From the NCBI GenBank assembly GCA_945787445.1, contig CALZHT010000022.1, positions 1 through 64,000 of the forward strand: DNA of 64,000 nucleotides, given 5' to 3'. The notes under the pieces were generated by a model. The model made no database searches. It had not been told where the DNA came from and saw only the letters and a program-made list of their open reading frames with translations. How positions within the stretch are numbered: the first letter of the stretch is position 1; each line of letters opens with the position of its first letter. Origin of the DNA: an uncultured Desulfobulbaceae bacterium (GTDB lineage: Bacteria > Desulfobacterota > Desulfobulbia > Desulfobulbales > CALZHT01). Positions 40,425 to 55,902 of the stretch are shown here, in pieces. The translations under genes and the position numbers were made by a program.

Positions 40425-41195
40425 GGCGCACCCAATTCACGTTCCTTGATTTGAGTGCAGGTCAGGCTGGATGCTCAACCATAAAGCAAACAACCATTGC
40501 CCGGCGCATTAAAGGTCCTGAAGTATAAATTTTTACAGCGCCTCGCATGAAATTCCCCGCCGCCCCATGAAAACAGATCCCCTGTTTTGTGCCGTCCGGC
40601 CGCGGCCATTTTACCAGCACTTCCTATGCATTTCTGATTACATCTACAGAGACAGATCATTTTCTTAGGCTGCATTACCCTATGATCGATTACGAGCAGC
40701 GAGAATTATTTTCCTGACATAAAAACATATTCAAGAAGAAACAAGGCGGTAAGGAGGAGGCCCTGGAATCATCCCGGCGGCCCACTGCATTGTTTCGCAA
40801 CAATACTTGTGAGAAAAGCGGGCTAGATGACAAAGATAGAATGTGAATACGATCCGCATGAAAAGATCCGTCGGCTCACGTCGTATCTCTGATGAGATTT
40901 TAGCCTCAATGCGGCCTTTTCCATTGGTGGTTCCGAGGTTTCCGCAAAGGGAAAAAAGAGCAGTAACATCCTTGTTCCGGTCCATCTGCGCATTGACTAA
41001 TTGAATCAATTTTGTTATAAATAAATAGTAAAAAAAGATCTGATAAAAGGCAAATCCATCGAAAGGTGGAGGCGCAAAGTCACCGGTCTACAGGAGCTTT
41101 GTCTCTATGACAGCGGGATTGCCGGATTTACTTAACCACATGCTCACTGCTGATCCTTCTGTTGTTACCAAATGCCGCCCAGAGGAGATGCAGAG
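40425..41195. other. Long non-coding stretch with a conserved 36-base motif
   Basis: About 770 bases without a convincing gene. At 40792-40827 lies a motif (GTTTCGCAACAATACTTGTG and on) about 80% identical to 47579-47614. Reading frames on the minus strand over both copies look alike only because the DNA does. A GATCGATTACGAGCAG word near 40683 recalls the repeat at 2698-2791. Confidence 0.5.
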
Positions 41196-42236
41196 ATGCA
41201 GAAGGCGACACCCTCTTCCAAGAAAGTAACAATTCTGAGAAAAATTTTTAAAAGTAACCGCAGTAATACCTTTTCAGCCGGCTTGATATTCATTTTCGGT
41301 GCAAACCTACTGTTTTTTTTGTTTCTTCTTGTCTGCACCCCTGCTGACGCCGAAGTACAGCACAGTTCCTCGCAGGATCAAAATACAATCCTTGACGAGT
41401 CTGCCTTGCCAACTGCCTACGGGGAAGTGATCTTCCGTCACAATGAATTGAGCCCGAAACAACTCTTTATCATCGGAATGGGCCACAGGAGTTTTCTGAG
41501 CAGGCAAAATGGCAGCAACACCTCAAAAACTCAGGCTGAAGTATTCAGAATAGGAGAATGGCTGAACCGCCATAAAAACTTGCAGCTCATTTTGCCCGAA
41601 GGTTTTTTCAGGGCGGCTGCTGATAACAATGAGGCAAGTTTTGCGCAAATGGGTGATGTTCACTTTGATCTCGAAAGTCAATTGTTTGATGCTCAGATTC
41701 TTGAGCAAAAACTCTCAGACAATTCTTGCTATGTAAATGCTGAAATGCTTTTGATTGAGAATTACATGATGAGAGCGCAGCAAGTGGAGGATATGCATCT
41801 CTATGATGCAGTGAGCAGCAGGCTTGCCAGACTTGAAGAAAGCTCCGATGATTCTAATGATCCTTTGTCGCTGCAATTTGAACTGAATTCTCTGCAGGAA
41901 TTAAGGACCGCAACAATGCTGCAGAATATTCCGGGCATAATAGAGTCCGAGTTCCGTCAGGGCAACATCAAAAAGAGGTTCGCACTGTTGACCATAGGGT
42001 TGGCTCACATCAATGAGATCATCAGGTTTGTTGATGAAAACAGAATAGAAATATCTTCCCCCGATAATCTTCCTGGGCAGCGTGGAGATTATCTCTCTGA
42101 TGTAAATCTAGTAAGAGAAGGATTCGGCATCACAATTATCATCCCACGGACACTGGCGGAAGACCGGGAGGTCCTTAAAGTAACCAAGCTGGAAGACATT
42201 TTTGTCAAAGATCAGGTTGTAATGGCCTCTCCTTGA
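41196..42236 (+). CDS. Secreted protein of unknown function (346 aa)
   Basis: The N-terminus is basic, followed by a hydrophobic segment (AGLIFIFGANLLFFLFLLVC) and then TPADAE, a plausible signal-peptide cleavage region. The mature part of about 290 residues is soluble and acidic. The order GMGHRSF, EVFRIGEWLN, LILPEGFF and LLTIGLAHINEII faintly recalls TraB/ChaN-like proteins, but I cannot assign it. The ATG at 41196 has AGAGGAG eight bases upstream and is preferred to 41172. Confidence 0.7.
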   Translation: MQKATPSSKKVTILRKIFKSNRSNTFSAGLIFIFGANLLFFLFLLVCTPADAEVQHSSSQDQNTILDESALPTAYGEVIFRHNELSPKQLFIIGMGHRSFLSRQNGSNTSKTQAEVFRIGEWLNRHKNLQLILPEGFFRAAADNNEASFAQMGDVHFDLESQLFDAQILEQKLSDNSCYVNAEMLLIENYMMRAQQVEDMHLYDAVSSRLARLEESSDDSNDPLSLQFELNSLQELRTATMLQNIPGIIESEFRQGNIKKRFALLTIGLAHINEIIRFVDENRIEISSPDNLPGQRGDYLSDVNLVREGFGITIIIPRTLAEDREVLKVTKLEDIFVKDQVVMASP

Positions 42237-47713: not shown

Positions 47714-47747
47714 AAAATTAAGAAAATGATTTTGAGTGGAGGAAGGC

Positions 47748-47963
47748 ATGCAGATCACTATCAATGGCGAAGATCAGCAACTTGATGATGCACGTCTCAC
47801 AATTGCCCAGCTGTTACAGGTAAAAGATGTAGAATCACCGGACATGGTCTCAGTGCAGCTCAATGGTGAGATAGTTGACCGGTCGCGATATGATGCGACA
47901 GAGATCTCGGACAACGATCATGTAGAATTCCTGTATTTCATGGGGGGCGGCACTTTCGCATGA
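47748..47963 (+). CDS. ThiS/MoaD-like sulfur carrier protein with extended C-terminus (HcyS-like)
   Basis: A 71-residue beta-grasp protein (MQITINGEDQQLDDARLTIA...). Its end is EFLYFMGGGTFA, so three or so residues follow the Gly-Gly that must be exposed for adenylation. In Wolinella the HcyS carrier is likewise trimmed by a JAMM protease before activation by an E1-like enzyme, and its thiocarboxylate feeds homocysteine synthesis. All partners occur here in order. GGAGG lies five bases before the ATG at 47748. The stop overlaps the next start (ATGA). Confidence 0.86.
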   Translation: MQITINGEDQQLDDARLTIAQLLQVKDVESPDMVSVQLNGEIVDRSRYDATEISDNDHVEFLYFMGGGTFA

Positions 47964-49192
47964 AAGGATTCACTACTAAGGCCGTTCATGGGGCCTCCCT
48001 GAAGAAAGATGTGCATGGTTCCTTACGGATGCCGGTTTATGACAGCGTTGCCTTTGAGCATGAAAGCGCCCGCTCGATCCAACTTACTTTTGAAGGGAAA
48101 AAACCTGCACACGCCTATTCCCGTATTTCTAATCCCACGGTTGAGGACTTTGAGCAGCGGCTGCGGTTGCTTTCCGGCGGGACGGCGGTGTTGGCAGTGG
48201 CTTCAGGAATGGCCGCCATAAGCAATACCATTCTGGCATTGGCAGAAACCGGAACTAACATCGTGACCACCAGATATCTTTTCGGCAACACCCTGTCGCT
48301 GTTTGAAAAGACCCTTAAGCCTTGGGGTTTGGAGGTCAAGTATGTTTCAATGACCGACCCGGATGAAGTCGATTCCGCTATCGATGCCAATACGCGTGCT
48401 GTGTTTGTTGAAAGCATCACCAATCCACAGCTCGAGGTTGCCGACTGCAGCCAATTGAGTGTAGTGAGCAAGAAACATGGGGTGCCTCTGGTGATGGACA
48501 ACACGCTGCTTACCCCATATCTTTTTAACACCAAAAAGGCAGGGGTGAACATCGAGGTTCTTTCAAGCACCAAATATATTTCCGGCGGAGCAACATCCGT
48601 TGGTGGGGTTATTATCGATAACGGCAATTTTGCCTGGTACAAGTCCCCAAGGCTGGGGAATCTCGCCAAAAAAACGGGACAGATGGCTTTTATAGCCGCC
48701 CTTCGTCAGGAAATTTACCGTAACGTCGGGGCCTGCATGTCTCCCCATAATGCATATCTCCAGAGCCTTGGGCTGGAGACCATGAGCCTGCGTATAGAGA
48801 AAAGCTGTGCAAATACAATGCAACTGGCGAAGTTTCTCGAACAGCATGCAAAGGTCAAGGCGGTCCACTATCCCGGCCTGCCAAGTTCACCTTACTTTGC
48901 AATCGCCGGAAAACAGTTCAACAATAAATACGGCGGTCTGCTGACCTTTGACCTGGAGAGCCGGGAGGCCTGCTTTGCCTTTATAGACAGGTTGCAACTC
49001 ATCAGGCGGGCAACCAATCTCAACGACAACAAGACACTTATCCTGCATCCTGCTTCCACAATATTTACCGAATATTCCGAAGAGGAAAAATTGGCCATGG
49101 GGGTAAGGCCGACCATGCTTCGTTTAGCGGTCGGCATTGAAGACCATGAAGATCTGCTTGAAGACTTGGAAAGGGGGTTCGAACCATTATGA
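47960..49192 (+). CDS. Cys/Met-metabolism PLP enzyme (O-acetylhomoserine sulfhydrylase-type)
   Basis: A 410-residue PLP enzyme of the cystathionine gamma-synthase/MetY family. Landmarks are AYSRISNPTVEDFEQRL, AVASGMAAISNTILAL, the cofactor-binding VDSAIDANTRAVFVESITNP, DNTLLTPYLF and the PLP-lysine segment SSTKYISGGATSVGGV. It starts within the stop of the sulfur-carrier gene. The context argues for homocysteine formation from O-acetylhomoserine using protein thiocarboxylate as sulfur donor. A gamma-lyase or gamma-synthase role is the alternative. Confidence 0.88.
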   Translation: MKGFTTKAVHGASLKKDVHGSLRMPVYDSVAFEHESARSIQLTFEGKKPAHAYSRISNPTVEDFEQRLRLLSGGTAVLAVASGMAAISNTILALAETGTNIVTTRYLFGNTLSLFEKTLKPWGLEVKYVSMTDPDEVDSAIDANTRAVFVESITNPQLEVADCSQLSVVSKKHGVPLVMDNTLLTPYLFNTKKAGVNIEVLSSTKYISGGATSVGGVIIDNGNFAWYKSPRLGNLAKKTGQMAFIAALRQEIYRNVGACMSPHNAYLQSLGLETMSLRIEKSCANTMQLAKFLEQHAKVKAVHYPGLPSSPYFAIAGKQFNNKYGGLLTFDLESREACFAFIDRLQLIRRATNLNDNKTLILHPASTIFTEYSEEEKLAMGVRPTMLRLAVGIEDHEDLLEDLERGFEPL

Positions 49193-49193
49193 T

Positions 49194-49287
49194 TGATGAA
49201 ATCGTAAAAAATACGACTTCATCGTTATATTACGTCGTAACTCGTTATAATTACATGGCACGTTAACCATTTTCCCGATTTTTTACG
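49194..49287. repeat. 100-bp interspersed repeat with TACGAATTCATC-type hairpin (copy 1)
   Basis: It begins TGATGAAATCGTAAAAAATA, passes through ATTACATGGCACGTTAACC and ends TTTTACGG just at the ribosome site of the MoeB-like gene. Copies in the opposite orientation lie at 50117-50211 and 55922-56019. Shared parts are the hairpin, the GTTAACGTG block and the AAAAAGTCG end. Confidence 0.75.
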
Positions 49288-49295
49288 GAGTTATC

Positions 49296-50111
49296 ATGAT
49301 TGACTTTACCTCAGAACAACTGGAACGTTACAGCCGCCATATCCTTCTGCAGGATGTCGGCGTGGAAGGCCAGGCTAAATTGCTTGGCGCCAAAGTGTTG
49401 ATCGTCGGAGCCGGCGGACTCGGGGCTCCTGCCGCCCTGTATTTAGCGGCAGCCGGTATCGGAACCATCGGCATTGTTGACAGTGATACCGTGGAAATCT
49501 CCAACCTGCAGCGGCAGGTTGTGCATTTTACCAAAGACATCGATATGCCCAAGGTTGAATCGGCCAAGGAGAAAATGCTTGCCATCAATCCCGGTATTGA
49601 GGTCAAGACCTATCAGGAATGCCTGAATGCCGATAATATCAGGGCGATCATCCGTGACTACGATTTTGTCGTGGATGGTACAGATAATTTTCCCACCAAA
49701 TTTCTGGTGAACGATGCCTGTGTCATGGATAATATTCCCTTTTCCCATGGGGGAATTCTGCGGTTCGATGGTCAGACTATGACGGTGGTGCCTGGGAAAT
49801 CGGCGTGCTACCGGTGCTTTTTTCGGAAACCACCCCCTCCTGATGCGGTGCCGACCTGTTCCCAAGCCGGAGTGCTTGGAGCAATCGCCGGTATGCTCGG
49901 CACAATCCAGGCAGCCGAGGCTTTAAAGTATGTTACTGAAGTGGGAGAACTCCTCACCGACACCTTGCTCTCCTTTAATGCCAAAACCATGAATTTCAGA
50001 AAAGTAACATTGCAAAAGCAAAAAAACTGCCCCATTTGCGGTGAAAACCCAACTGTAACCGAACTTATCGATGAAGAACAGGCTTTGACTTGTAATCTGC
50101 GGCAATATTGA
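49296..50111 (+). CDS. MoeB/ThiF/HesA-type E1-like activating enzyme
   Basis: A 271-residue adenylating enzyme that activates the C-terminal Gly-Gly of a beta-grasp carrier. The N-terminus RYSRHILLQDVGVEGQAKL is the MoeB/ThiF signature; the nucleotide loop is VGAGGLGAPAALYL, with the adenylation Arg in ISNLQRQVVH and DGTDNFPTKFLVND. Zinc ligands are CYRCF and CPICG. The Cys near ALGAPTCSQAGVLG-type position is present as PTCSQAGVLG. It lies between the PLP enzyme and JAMM protease genes, so the HcyS-like protein is the likely partner (HcyF role). Confidence 0.9.
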   Translation: MIDFTSEQLERYSRHILLQDVGVEGQAKLLGAKVLIVGAGGLGAPAALYLAAAGIGTIGIVDSDTVEISNLQRQVVHFTKDIDMPKVESAKEKMLAINPGIEVKTYQECLNADNIRAIIRDYDFVVDGTDNFPTKFLVNDACVMDNIPFSHGGILRFDGQTMTVVPGKSACYRCFFRKPPPPDAVPTCSQAGVLGAIAGMLGTIQAAEALKYVTEVGELLTDTLLSFNAKTMNFRKVTLQKQKNCPICGENPTVTELIDEEQALTCNLRQY

Positions 50112-50116
50112 TGGCC

Positions 50117-50211
50117 CTGTAAAAAGTCGGGAAAAAGGTTAACGTGGAATGTAAAATTAGGGATTTACACCCTGATACAACGGTGAATTCGTATTTTTAC
50201 GAATTCATCAA
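50117..50211. repeat. 100-bp interspersed repeat (copy 2, inverted)
   Basis: TGTAAAAAGTCGGGAAAAAG, then GTTAACGTGGAATGT, ending in the hairpin TGAATTCGTATTTTTACGAATTCA. It occupies nearly the whole gap between the MoeB-like and JAMM genes, in the opposite orientation to the copy at 49194. Transcripts of the operon would carry both and could pair. Confidence 0.78.
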
Positions 50212-50232
50212 TATTAGAAGGGCGTCACAACT

Positions 50233-50643
50233 ATGCTGAAAGTGAAAGAAAATGTCATCAGGGCCATTATTTCCCACGCAGAAAAAGAGCTGCCCTATGA
50301 AGCATGTGGTTATCTGGCTGCAGAGGCCGGCCTGGTCGGCCACCATTACGAGATGACCAACACCGATAAAGCAGCTGATCATTTCAGCATGGATCCCCAA
50401 GAACAATTCGCAGCGGTAAAAGATATACGGAATCGGGGACTGACACTCTGTGGCGTGTACCATAGCCATCCGGAGACCCCGGCCCGGCCGTCTATCGAAG
50501 ATATCAGATTGGCGTATGACCCGGACCTCAGCTATGTCATAATTTCCCTGGCCGGTAAGGAACCCATAGTCAAATCATTTCTCATCAAGGGAGGGGAAGT
50601 CAGCCCCGAAGCCCTTGAGATCCTTAAAGAGGAAGGAATTTAA
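50233..50643 (+). CDS. JAMM/Mov34 metalloprotease (HcyD-like)
   Basis: A 136-residue JAMM protein. The zinc site is complete: Glu in ELPYEACGYL, then VYHSHPETPARPSIEDIR with both His and the Asp. Bacterial stand-alone JAMM proteases in ThiS/MoaD clusters remove residues after the Gly-Gly of the carrier. The carrier in this cluster ends GGGTFA, which requires exactly such a step. The family includes Mec+ and HcyD. Expected location is the cytoplasm. Confidence 0.9.
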   Translation: MLKVKENVIRAIISHAEKELPYEACGYLAAEAGLVGHHYEMTNTDKAADHFSMDPQEQFAAVKDIRNRGLTLCGVYHSHPETPARPSIEDIRLAYDPDLSYVIISLAGKEPIVKSFLIKGGEVSPEALEILKEEGI

Positions 50644-50717
50644 TTCTGGAATTTCTATGCCCGAAACAAATTTCAGGAGGTTATGAAGTGATATCGAATT
50701 TTACATGGACAGCAGTG

Positions 50718-50757
50718 AAGTGCCTAAAGTTCGAAGTGTACTAAAGTGCCTAAAGTT
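50718..50757. repeat. AAGTGCCTAAAGT repeat (copy 2, short)
   Basis: AAGTGCCTAAAGT occurs twice here around TCGAAGTGTACT. Related to 10546-10628 and 59873-59956. It lies between the JAMM and TusA-like genes. Confidence 0.65.
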
Positions 50758-50823
50758 GTGGTTCATGACAAAATTTTTCAAGGTCAAATTGCCTGTAATC
50801 AATCATCCATATCGGAGGATACC

Positions 50824-51066
50824 ATGACAAAGATAAAAACAGCAGACGCGGTCAAAAATTGCCGTGGAGTCGGATGCCCCATGAACATGGTCTATACAAA
50901 GGTGGAACTGGCCAAATTACAGTCTGGCCAGGTCCTTGAATTGATCCTGGACGATGGTCCGCCCATTAATAATGTGCCGGGATCGGTTATCAAAGAAGGG
51001 CATAAAATTCTGGAACAGAGACAGCTTGCAGACGGCGCCTGGTTGGTACTGGTTGAAAAGGGCTAA
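50824..51066 (+). CDS. TusA/SirA-like sulfur-transfer protein
   Basis: An 80-residue TusA-fold protein. The conserved Cys is in KNCRGVGCPMNMVYTKVEL, equivalent to the CPxP motif of TusA, with Met-Asn in place of the usual Pro-containing end. The GQVLELILDDGPPINNVPGS stretch fits the family. CGGAGGAT precedes the ATG at 50824. It closes the sulfur cluster and may carry persulfide sulfur to the E1-like enzyme or carrier; this is inference. Confidence 0.85.
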   Translation: MTKIKTADAVKNCRGVGCPMNMVYTKVELAKLQSGQVLELILDDGPPINNVPGSVIKEGHKILEQRQLADGAWLVLVEKG

Positions 51067-53243: not shown

Positions 53244-53272
53244 TTGACAGGAGAAGGGTGTTCCCTTATATT
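53244..53272 (+). promoter_or_regulatory. Promoter of the MarR-family gene, leaderless layout
   Basis: TTGACA (53244-53249) and TATATT (53267-53272) are 17 bases apart. The start codon ATG at 53283 follows the -10 box by only 10 bases, so transcription would start about 3 bases or fewer before the ATG. There is no room for a ribosome site. Confidence 0.72.
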
Positions 53273-53282
53273 AGTTATTACT

Positions 53283-53762
53283 ATGAACGATCAGAAGGAG
53301 CAGGCCCAACGACTGGCAGGTTATCAAACAAACAGACTGCAGGAACTCATCCTTGAAATGCATGATTGCTGCAAAGAAGCAATGCATTTCCAGGCCCGTT
53401 CCTTTGGTCTCCTGCAATCGGAACTCAAATGTCTTCTCCTTTTTGAAGGCCATAAGTATCTAACCGGCATGGAGATTGCCGCTTTGCTCGAAGTGGCCAA
53501 AAGCAGGGCCACCGTGATCATCGACAATCTTGACAAAAAAGGATTTGTCAGCCGGGTAGCGGACCCGAACGACGCCAGGGTAAAGCTCATAAGTCTCACA
53601 TCTGTCGGGGTAAAAAAAGTGCAAGAGATTGAAGAATTCATCTTCGGTCTCTATTTCAAACTCCTCAACCATATAAATCCTGCCAAACGCAACGAAGTTA
53701 TAGCGGCATTGGAAACCTTGCGTTCCGCAATGCTCTCTATTCAGGAGATGCATAAAAAATAA
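53283..53762 (+). CDS. MarR family transcriptional regulator
   Basis: A 159-residue MarR-type protein: helical dimerisation ends and a central winged helix (LTGMEIAALLEVAKSRATVI, then DNLDKKGFVSRVADPNDARV with the wing Asp and Arg). It has two neighbouring Cys in EMHDCCKEAMHF, which could sense oxidants or sulfur species. I chose ATG 53283 because the longer frame would begin inside the -35 box. The haem c/rhodanese selenoprotein gene follows 119 bp downstream and is a likely target. Confidence 0.86.
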   Translation: MNDQKEQAQRLAGYQTNRLQELILEMHDCCKEAMHFQARSFGLLQSELKCLLLFEGHKYLTGMEIAALLEVAKSRATVIIDNLDKKGFVSRVADPNDARVKLISLTSVGVKKVQEIEEFIFGLYFKLLNHINPAKRNEVIAALETLRSAMLSIQEMHKK

Positions 53763-53881
53763 TTTTTTTATCTCTAAGGTTAACAGTATGAACTAAATGG
53801 AGGTGTTTAAATAAAGAAAACCGATCGATAGGAAGAAAGGCAATTATAGAAGTTTGTCAAATTTTACAGGAGGACGGATAC

Positions 53882-55234
53882 ATGTCCCTGAAAAAGACCT
53901 TACTCGCCACAATTATGATGCTTTGCCTTGGACTGACAATCCATACCGGCAAAGCCCTTGCCGCTAAGCCCAACACTATGAAAGGCTGCAAGGAATGCCA
54001 CACCCCTGATCCCAATGTTGTCAGGGGGAAAAAGCTCGCCCATTCGGAAAAGTTCAAAACCCTGCAGGTTGATGTAGGTTCCGTTGTTTGGGTAATTCAA
54101 TATGATAACAACACACTGCTGAAAGGAGCTGATTCCCTTGCTGCGCTGAAGAAAGGCAAGGAGATATCGGTGACTTACAAAGGAACGGAAAAAAGCCCTG
54201 TTGCCACGGCAATTTTCGTGAAGCAGCCTTTTAAGGTTCCGGATAAGCAACTGGTATCCGTTGAAGAAATGCTCAAACTTTCAGCAGCGGGGCCGGAAAA
54301 GGGAGGATTCCTGCTTGTTGATTCCAGGCCGCCTGCAGCCTATAATTCTGGCCATATCCCCGACGCCGTATCCATTCCCTTCCCCAAACTCAAGAAAATG
54401 GGAGCTGAAATCCTGCCCAAAGACAAGAACGCGCGGGTCATCTTTTATTGCGGGGGATTTACCTGAGCGTTGAGTCCCACTTCCGCACGTGTTGCGGAAA
54501 AAATCGGATACGCAAACACCCGGGTCTTTCATGACGGAATGCCAGCCTGGAAGAAGGCTAAAGGATTCATGGTATCGGAGCCCGGCTATATAAAAAGCAT
54601 GAGGAAAAAGAATGGTTCATATGTCCTGATTGATTTGAGACCGGTCGTCTCGGCCCAGAGAGGGCATATCAAAGGAGCGGTCAGCATACCTGCCGCCAAA
54701 GTGGCAAATTCCAGAGCCAGATTCCCGAAAGACAAAAAAGCCCCCATCATCCTCTATACAAAAGATGTAGTGGATGAATCCGCCTTCAATACAATAAGAA
54801 ACTGGGGCTATACCAATGTATCGGTTCTTAATGGCGGCATGCAGGGGTGGCTTGCATCCAGAGGAACCCTTGTTTCCGGTGATATGCCGACCACCATCTC
54901 CTATGTCAAGAAAACCCCAAGGGGTGAAATAAGCATCGAGGATTTCGAAGCCATCGTGAAAAAAAATCTGGCCGACAAGTTTATTCTTGATGTCCGAGAT
55001 TCCAACACCGCGGCGCAGGGTATGCTCAAAGGCGCGGTCAACATCCCCCTGGCAGATGTGGAGTTAAGACTCAAGGAGATTCCCAGAGACAAGGAAATCA
55101 TTATACACTGCAATACCGGTATCATGGCCGGCATGTCTAATGAAATTTTGAAAAAAAACGGTTATAAGACCAGAATAGTGAACGCTGTGGTGCAGATTGA
55201 CGCTGACGGCAACTATGAAATAACCGAGAAGTAA
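53882..55234 (+). CDS. Periplasmic haem c / triple-rhodanese selenoprotein (in-frame UGA = Sec)
   Basis: A 450-residue protein read through an in-frame TGA (54464-54466). A signal peptide (about 1-27) is followed by a haem c motif GCKECH, a small domain to about 110, then three rhodanese domains. Domain 1 contains VIFYCGGFT-Sec-ALSPTSARVA, the usual YCGG catalytic loop with Sec four residues after the Cys (positions C-G-G-F-T-U). Domain 2 (about 235-320) lacks the catalytic Cys (IILYTKDVVDE). Domain 3 has IIIHCNTGIMAGMS. Both flanks of the TGA are in one frame and continue one domain, and a SECIS-like hairpin follows. It likely handles sulfur or polysulfide and electrons in the periplasm. AGGAGG precedes the ATG. 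Confidence 0.87.
54464..54499 (+). promoter_or_regulatory. UGA codon with bacterial SECIS-like hairpin
   Basis: After the TGA at 54464-54466, TTCCGCA (54481-54487) pairs perfectly with TGCGGAA (54493-54499) around the loop CGTGT. The loop starts 21 bases after the UGA and has G at its second position, both within the known limits for bacterial SECIS elements. Confidence 0.8.
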
Positions 55235-55554: not shown

Positions 55555-55713
55555 TCTATTTTCCCTTCTTGAAATAGTGGTTGAAGTTGTCGGGTAAACG
55601 TGTGATAGTCCGCTCTAAATTAAGAAGATTGAATGTAAAATTGAGAAAGAAGGGCCATCTTTCATTTTACGACTGTAACCGGTTAAAAAAGGCCGAAAAA
55701 AATAGGAGTGGAT

Positions 55714-55902
55714 ATGACATTCGATTCATTTGAGCAGGCACTCAAGGTGTGTATGACGGCGGAAGAGGGCAGCGCGGAGCAGGATGCGGCCTTGATTTAT
55801 TGCCTTGAAAATGCGCCGCCGGAATTGCAGGCGGTTATGAAAGAACAATACAGGAAGTTTCATGAACATAAGCACCAATGCGACTGCGGATGCAAGAAAT
55901 GA
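55714..55902 (+). CDS. Small protein with His/Cys-rich tail (62 aa)
   Basis: A 62-residue helical, acidic protein (MTFDSFEQALKVCMTAEEGS...) ending HEHKHQCDCGCKK, a likely metal-binding tail. AGGAG lies five bases before the ATG at 55714; an in-frame GTG at 55708 overlaps that site. The family is unknown. It lies after the selenoprotein region and before a membrane sensor pair. Confidence 0.68.
   Translation: MTFDSFEQALKVCMTAEEGSAEQDAALIYCLENAPPELQAVMKEQYRKFHEHKHQCDCGCKK

Follow-up and report, generated by a model that had tools for sequence, protein, structure and literature searches.

In the window, a stretch of 64,000 nucleotides, positions 53882–55234 of the forward strand form one gene that encodes a protein of 450 residues when an in-frame TGA is read as selenocysteine (Sec). 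From the ATG at 53882, an open reading frame of 194 amino acids extends to the TGA at 54464–54466 (forward strand), and the same frame then runs onward to a TAA stop at 55234. A sequence matching a ribosome-binding site (AGGAGG, 53868–53873, forward strand) lies 8 nt 5′ of the ATG. As the sequence-only reading had noted, a MarR-family regulator gene precedes the selenoprotein gene, at 53286–53762 on the same strand (PF01047, E = 2.4e-8) and 120 bp upstream of it; the TTG at 53244 could serve as an alternative start of the MarR open reading frame. A scan for promoters and terminators gave numbers near chance, the best candidate being an 11/12 promoter-like site at 53244–53272, before the MarR gene. 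A search of plasmid records gave no match.

The closest relative found, in a genome of the same GTDB family (G396, locus L096), is 60% identical to the window protein, has the TGA and a CKTCH motif, and also lies downstream of a MarR gene, which is 65% identical to that of the window (tblastn, E = 2e-64). MarR was considered as a general partner of the family and rejected, because the tblastn match was confined to L096, with none in the other loci. Likewise, an operon logic was sought by clustering the flanking genes of 15 related loci and was rejected; none of these genes recurs outside closely related contigs. The selenorhodanese gene thus seems to stand alone rather than in an operon, and since its neighbours vary outside the closest relative, they offer no operon hint at the substrate. 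Just downstream of the selenoprotein gene lies an open reading frame of 64 amino acids (55708–55902, forward strand) with a CDCGCKK tail, which matched no family in Pfam or NCBIfam and had no counterpart in the related loci.

Pfam assigns three stretches of the window protein to the rhodanese family (PF00581, E = 5.8e-46), and an AlphaFold2 model built on the family alignment (pLDDT 84.8) comprises an N-terminal helix, an OB barrel and three rhodanese domains. The N-terminus, helical at low confidence in the model, resembles a signal peptide by sequence (53882–53962, forward strand), with a basic and a hydrophobic segment and an ALA cleavage-like site. It is followed by CKECH, a haem c motif by conservation (residues 36–40, 53987–54001), and by the barrel (residues 45–120, 54014–54241), which was modeled alone with a pLDDT of 95.1. 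The best PDB match of the barrel is CusF (E = 2.8e-4, TM about 0.6–0.7), and DUF5666 matches weakly in two family members. Rhodanese domain 1 (54242–54571, best PF00581 stretch at residues 136–226) has the loop C190-G-G-F-T-U195, in which Cys190 (54449–54451), nearly invariant in the alignment, is the putative sulfur-accepting nucleophile. The corresponding loop region of domain 2 (54572–54886), LYTKDVV, is placed by Pfam, alignment and model; this domain is presumed to be structural. Domain 3 (54917–55201; Pfam, model) has the loop HC410NTG, and Cys410 is invariant in family alignment A1. The loop Cys of active rhodaneses is thus found in domains 1 and 3 and is absent from domain 2.

Both Cys residues and the His of the CXXCH motif are invariant in 17 members of the haem clade, one of which has CX4CH, a spacing also seen in further relatives of the f32 family. 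The window genome encodes cytochrome c assembly proteins (PF01578, three matches). The sequence-only reading had placed a selenorhodanese and a haem in one exported protein; CKECH and the signal-like N-terminus agree with this, with export read from the sequence and haem from the motif only. We consider it probable that the window protein is exported and carries haem c.

The TGA falls inside the first rhodanese loop (YCGGFT-U-ALSP), as had been claimed, and the homologue alignment shows homology on both sides of it in one common reading frame. Sec195 is the sixth and last residue of the domain 1 loop, five residues after the retained Cys190, and is therefore not a replacement of the nucleophile but its partner. 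Including the window, TGA occupies the same first-loop codon in 45 distinct homologous sequences, all in one alignment column and with the loop pattern C-x4-U-x2-S/T, and Cys occupies it in 15 others. The comparison with Cys-containing homologues that had been suggested thus bears the reading out: the site is Sec or Cys only, save in three divergent homologues with altered loops. A scan of GTDB contigs gave 18 relatives matching over most of the available length, 14 with TGA and four with Cys at the same codon. A relative was present in 39 of 395 sampled genomes of the same phylum as the window genome, in the TGA form in 29 of the 39; a check of all 29 placed the TGA at one and the same position of the loop, and neither TAA nor TAG occurs at the Sec codon among the checked phylum-sample relatives.

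A search of the window genome (4.46 Mb, 227 contigs, 96% complete) for the Sec machinery likewise came out in favour of Sec decoding, with tRNA-Sec (71.5 bits) above the Rfam cut-off and SelB (356 bits), SelA (638 bits) and SelD (340 bits) above curated cut-offs. Of the 39 genomes that encode a relative, 38 also have SelB and the remaining one is 76% complete; Cys forms, too, therefore occur in genomes with Sec machinery. Taken together with the SECIS data below, we regard it as almost certain that UGA 195 encodes selenocysteine and that this is a genuine selenoprotein. The SelD gene of the window genome (C85:3605-4534, L047) has an in-frame TGA of its own, and its product is likely a selenoprotein as well.

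Downstream of the TGA, a candidate bacterial SECIS hairpin (UUCCGCA-CGUGU-UGCGGAA, 54481–54499, forward strand) has 7 bp, the loop CGUGU, a UGA-to-loop distance of 21 nt and a minimum free energy of −9.5 kcal/mol. The 7-bp hairpin with its five-base loop had been said to start at the right distance, and it indeed lies within the published limits for bacterial SECIS elements, which ask for a loop of 3–9 nt with G within its first two positions, a spacing of 16–37 nt and an energy of at most −7.5 kcal/mol (PMC13188914). By chance, the full seven pairs form in 2.7% of synonymous recodings, and such a hairpin follows 80 of the 2324 TGAs in the window (3.4%); being this common, the hairpin was rejected as sufficient evidence on its own. 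Across the family, all five core pairs are present in 38 of 45 TGA genes versus none of 15 Cys genes (Fisher p = 3e-9), the four inner pairs form in 100% of the 45 distinct Sec sequences, and −7.5 kcal/mol is reached by 39/45 Sec versus 2/15 Cys sequences. Two pairs join third codon positions and covary (C-G/T-A/G-C/T-G and C-G/A-T/T-A). One of these, pair 20–32, is C-G in 26, T-A in 10, G-C in 5 and T-G in 4 Sec genes, whereas just 20% of Cys genes form it. An independent count over 15 sequences gave a covariation of 0.248 versus 0.137 for shuffled sequences, with no shuffle as high. The proposed SECIS check thus ended with a hairpin that fits the published model and covaries across the family: weak as evidence by itself, the predicted element is decisively supported family-wide. 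Rfam at gathering thresholds gave no match at the SECIS position. In two sister genomes that encode a haemless relative, the Sec form (G357, L079) and the Cys form (G376, L090) differ by the codon change and by the loss of one core pair; the two capture a Sec/Cys switch soon after it took place.

A maximum-likelihood tree of the family has two well-supported sides. The haem side takes in the window protein, Nitrospirota, Desulfobacterales and several other families, and the side without CXXCH includes several members with lipoprotein-like N-termini. Sec and Cys members occur on both sides, and the haem motif is a trait of one clade, with a sister clade that keeps Sec without CXXCH. At least eight changes are needed to account for the Sec/Cys label on the tree; repeated exchange of this kind is typical of a redox Cys/Sec site. 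Sec and haem had been described as an unusual mix, and they do occur together here, but the combination recurs across Thermodesulfobacteriota and Nitrospirota and is no one-off. Among cultivated bacteria, Thermodesulfovibrio strain N1 has the gene (L041). Several relatives depart from the common pattern. Two haem-side copies (L072 in G327 and L073 in G289) have a shortened, shifted loop (CVGGC and DIGGC, respectively) that is not equivalent, and each of their genomes carries a second copy with TGA. G202 encodes two lipoprotein-like paralogues (L083, L084), one with Sec and one with Cys, which belong to the haemless type and lack the OB barrel, and G287 has a degenerate relative only.

Rhodanese forms 1 to 5 are listed in selenoprotein catalogues (PMC13188914; PMC9312934). 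Form 1 is a rhodanese-like domain-containing selenoprotein with PF00581 and UxxS (WP_010941598.1), credited to Zhang and Gladyshev 2005 (Zhang et al. 2026, PMC13188914), and one survey lists 25 selenoproteins as ‘sulfurtransferase homologous to a rhodanese-like protein’ in 24 organisms (PMC5029168). The window protein carries both motif features of form 1, namely PF00581 (E = 5.8e-46) and UxxS (UALS), and shares its bacterial SECIS. However, the catalogue mentions no haem, WP_010941598.1 being compared by its catalogue description only. TsoB (NF045694, rhodanese/DsbD fusion-like, UxxxxU) agrees with the window protein in loop spacing, Sec lying five residues beyond the first loop residue, and its model aligns to window residues 117–226 (E = 9e-21). 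Membership was nonetheless rejected: the score of 73.6 bits falls far below the cut-off of 805 and Cys replaces the first Sec, while TsoB itself has Sec at both loop ends and a DsbD-like part. The whole model matches the multi-domain rhodaneses 1yt8, EanB (6ktv) and YnjE (3ipo), of which the E. coli YnjE, 1yt8 and EanB similarly combine several rhodanese domains, active and inactive, in one chain. To our knowledge, none of the three has Sec, CXXCH or an OB barrel. ExtH (NF040901), from the Geobacter selenite/tellurite cluster, is likewise rhodanese-like and found in metal- and sulfur-reducing bacteria; membership was rejected, as the window protein gave no match at E = 0.01 (cut-off 200). CusF, a periplasmic Cu/Ag-binding OB fold, shares the barrel fold at about 10–12% identity but has no rhodanese domain, haem or Sec. 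The window protein passes no NCBIfam model. Selenorhodaneses with UxxS are thus known, and the form with haem, OB barrel and three rhodanese domains is undescribed in the literature found, form 1 being compared by description. That search, which covered mainly papers available without subscription, retrieved no paper on a haem-rhodanese selenoprotein.

The distribution of the gene bears on its function. Among the 29 genomes with the TGA form, 26 have dsrA, whereas dsrA is present in 190 of all 395 sampled genomes; this association (p = 2e-6, without correction for relatedness) may reflect shared ancestry. The genomes of the four haem-side Cys forms in the phylum sample (G098, G153, G246 and G362) are dsrA-negative, and the window genome, which is of the sulfate-reducer type, is dsrA-positive. 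This co-occurrence, together with the dsrA of the window genome, favours an exported sulfane-sulfur enzyme, which we think the protein probably is. Because many anaerobic sulfur bacteria share the gene, it probably represents an undescribed Se-dependent enzyme of sulfur metabolism.

Building on the Sec codon, SECIS element, decoding machinery, domain order and Cys/Sec exchange, all evident in the sequences, we infer a plausible scheme comprising export, haem attachment, persulfide chemistry, a reductive role and an electron route. First, SelB would decode UGA 195 as Sec using the hairpin just downstream. In the exported protein, Cys190 of domain 1, and probably Cys410 of domain 3, would form enzyme persulfides by taking sulfane sulfur from thiosulfate, polysulfide or a persulfide. 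The Cys190 persulfide would then be attacked by Sec195, which sits at the far end of the same loop, so that sulfide is released or the sulfur is handed on and a Cys190–Sec195 selenenylsulfide results. Finally, this selenenylsulfide would be re-reduced by electrons, plausibly from periplasmic cytochromes through the haem. A periplasmic sulfane-sulfur transferase/reductase with a Cys190–Sec195 redox pair, possibly re-reduced via the haem, is the best explanation overall, with a probability of about 0.5. Among its parts, a reductive Cys/Sec cycle is put at slightly under even odds, and the haem as electron route is a tentative suggestion. Since Sec is kept in haemless relatives, haem is not essential to the Sec chemistry and would be an added electron route outside the core chemistry. 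Still more speculative is the fullest version, a haem-wired, Se-dependent periplasmic reductase of sulfane sulfur (persulfide, polysulfide or thiosulfate) whose Cys–Sec pair shares a single rhodanese loop and which would be widespread among Thermodesulfobacteriota and Nitrospirota with dissimilatory sulfur metabolism and previously undescribed.

Other explanations were weighed against the sulfane-sulfur transferase/reductase. TGA is a stop in table 11 and the hairpin alone is unexceptional, as would suit a pseudogene, a sequencing error or an ordinary stop separating two genes or truncating a rhodanese. Such a reading is extremely improbable given that only TGA, at one codon, recurs in the 45 distinct sequences from many genomes and that SelB accompanies the gene in every sampled genome except the incomplete one. 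The protein might instead handle selenium rather than sulfur, as a periplasmic rhodanese that processes perselenide or selenite or traffics Se, like the rhodanese of the Geobacter ext cluster. Rhodaneses can carry perselenide (cited in PMC5877670), and ExtH matches weakly in two of 19 members; yet ExtH belongs to a separate family with no match in the window genome at E = 1e-20, the gene adjoins no ext-like cytochrome cluster, and the TGA form tracks dsrA, all of which leave a selenium role unlikely.

Slightly less likely still, CXXCH and the OB barrel could form a CusF-like metal site in an exported protein that handles metal, or mercury or copper, with Cys and Sec binding soft metals. Selenolates bind soft metals strongly, and CusF is the best PDB match of the barrel at the level of fold. 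Three rhodanese domains, with two loops intact, argue otherwise, and the CX4CH spacing of Thermodesulfovibrio-like members, in which C and CH are kept, suits haem c better than a metal site. We give an equally low standing to a sensor of redox or sulfide stress, or a protein-thiol oxidoreductase, with C-x4-U as a redox switch under the control of the upstream MarR. MarR proteins are often thiol or persulfide sensors, one adjoins the gene here and in the same-family relative, and the loop does hold a Cys/Sec pair; against this, the other loci lack a MarR match and the protein has no signalling domain.

Selenorhodaneses have so far been catalogued without a function. This family, with Sec beside a catalytic Cys, genomes that keep Sec, repeated exchanges with Cys and a clade combining the haem motif with export, offers a concrete and testable reason why organisms that reduce sulfate or sulfur would invest selenium in handling sulfane sulfur beyond the cytoplasm.

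Elsewhere in the window, a c-di-GMP-I riboswitch (41039–41126, forward strand; 77.9 bits) lies 45 bp upstream of an open reading frame (41172–42236) for an unannotated, apparently exported protein of 354 amino acids. A compact sulfur-carrier cluster at 47736–51066 (forward strand) encodes a ThiS-like protein, an OAH/OAS-sulfhydrylase-like PLP enzyme, a MoeB/UbaA-like E1, a Prok-JAB (desampylase-like) protease and a TusA/YedF-like protein, an arrangement that we take to resemble a previously described sulfide-to-homocysteine carrier pathway.
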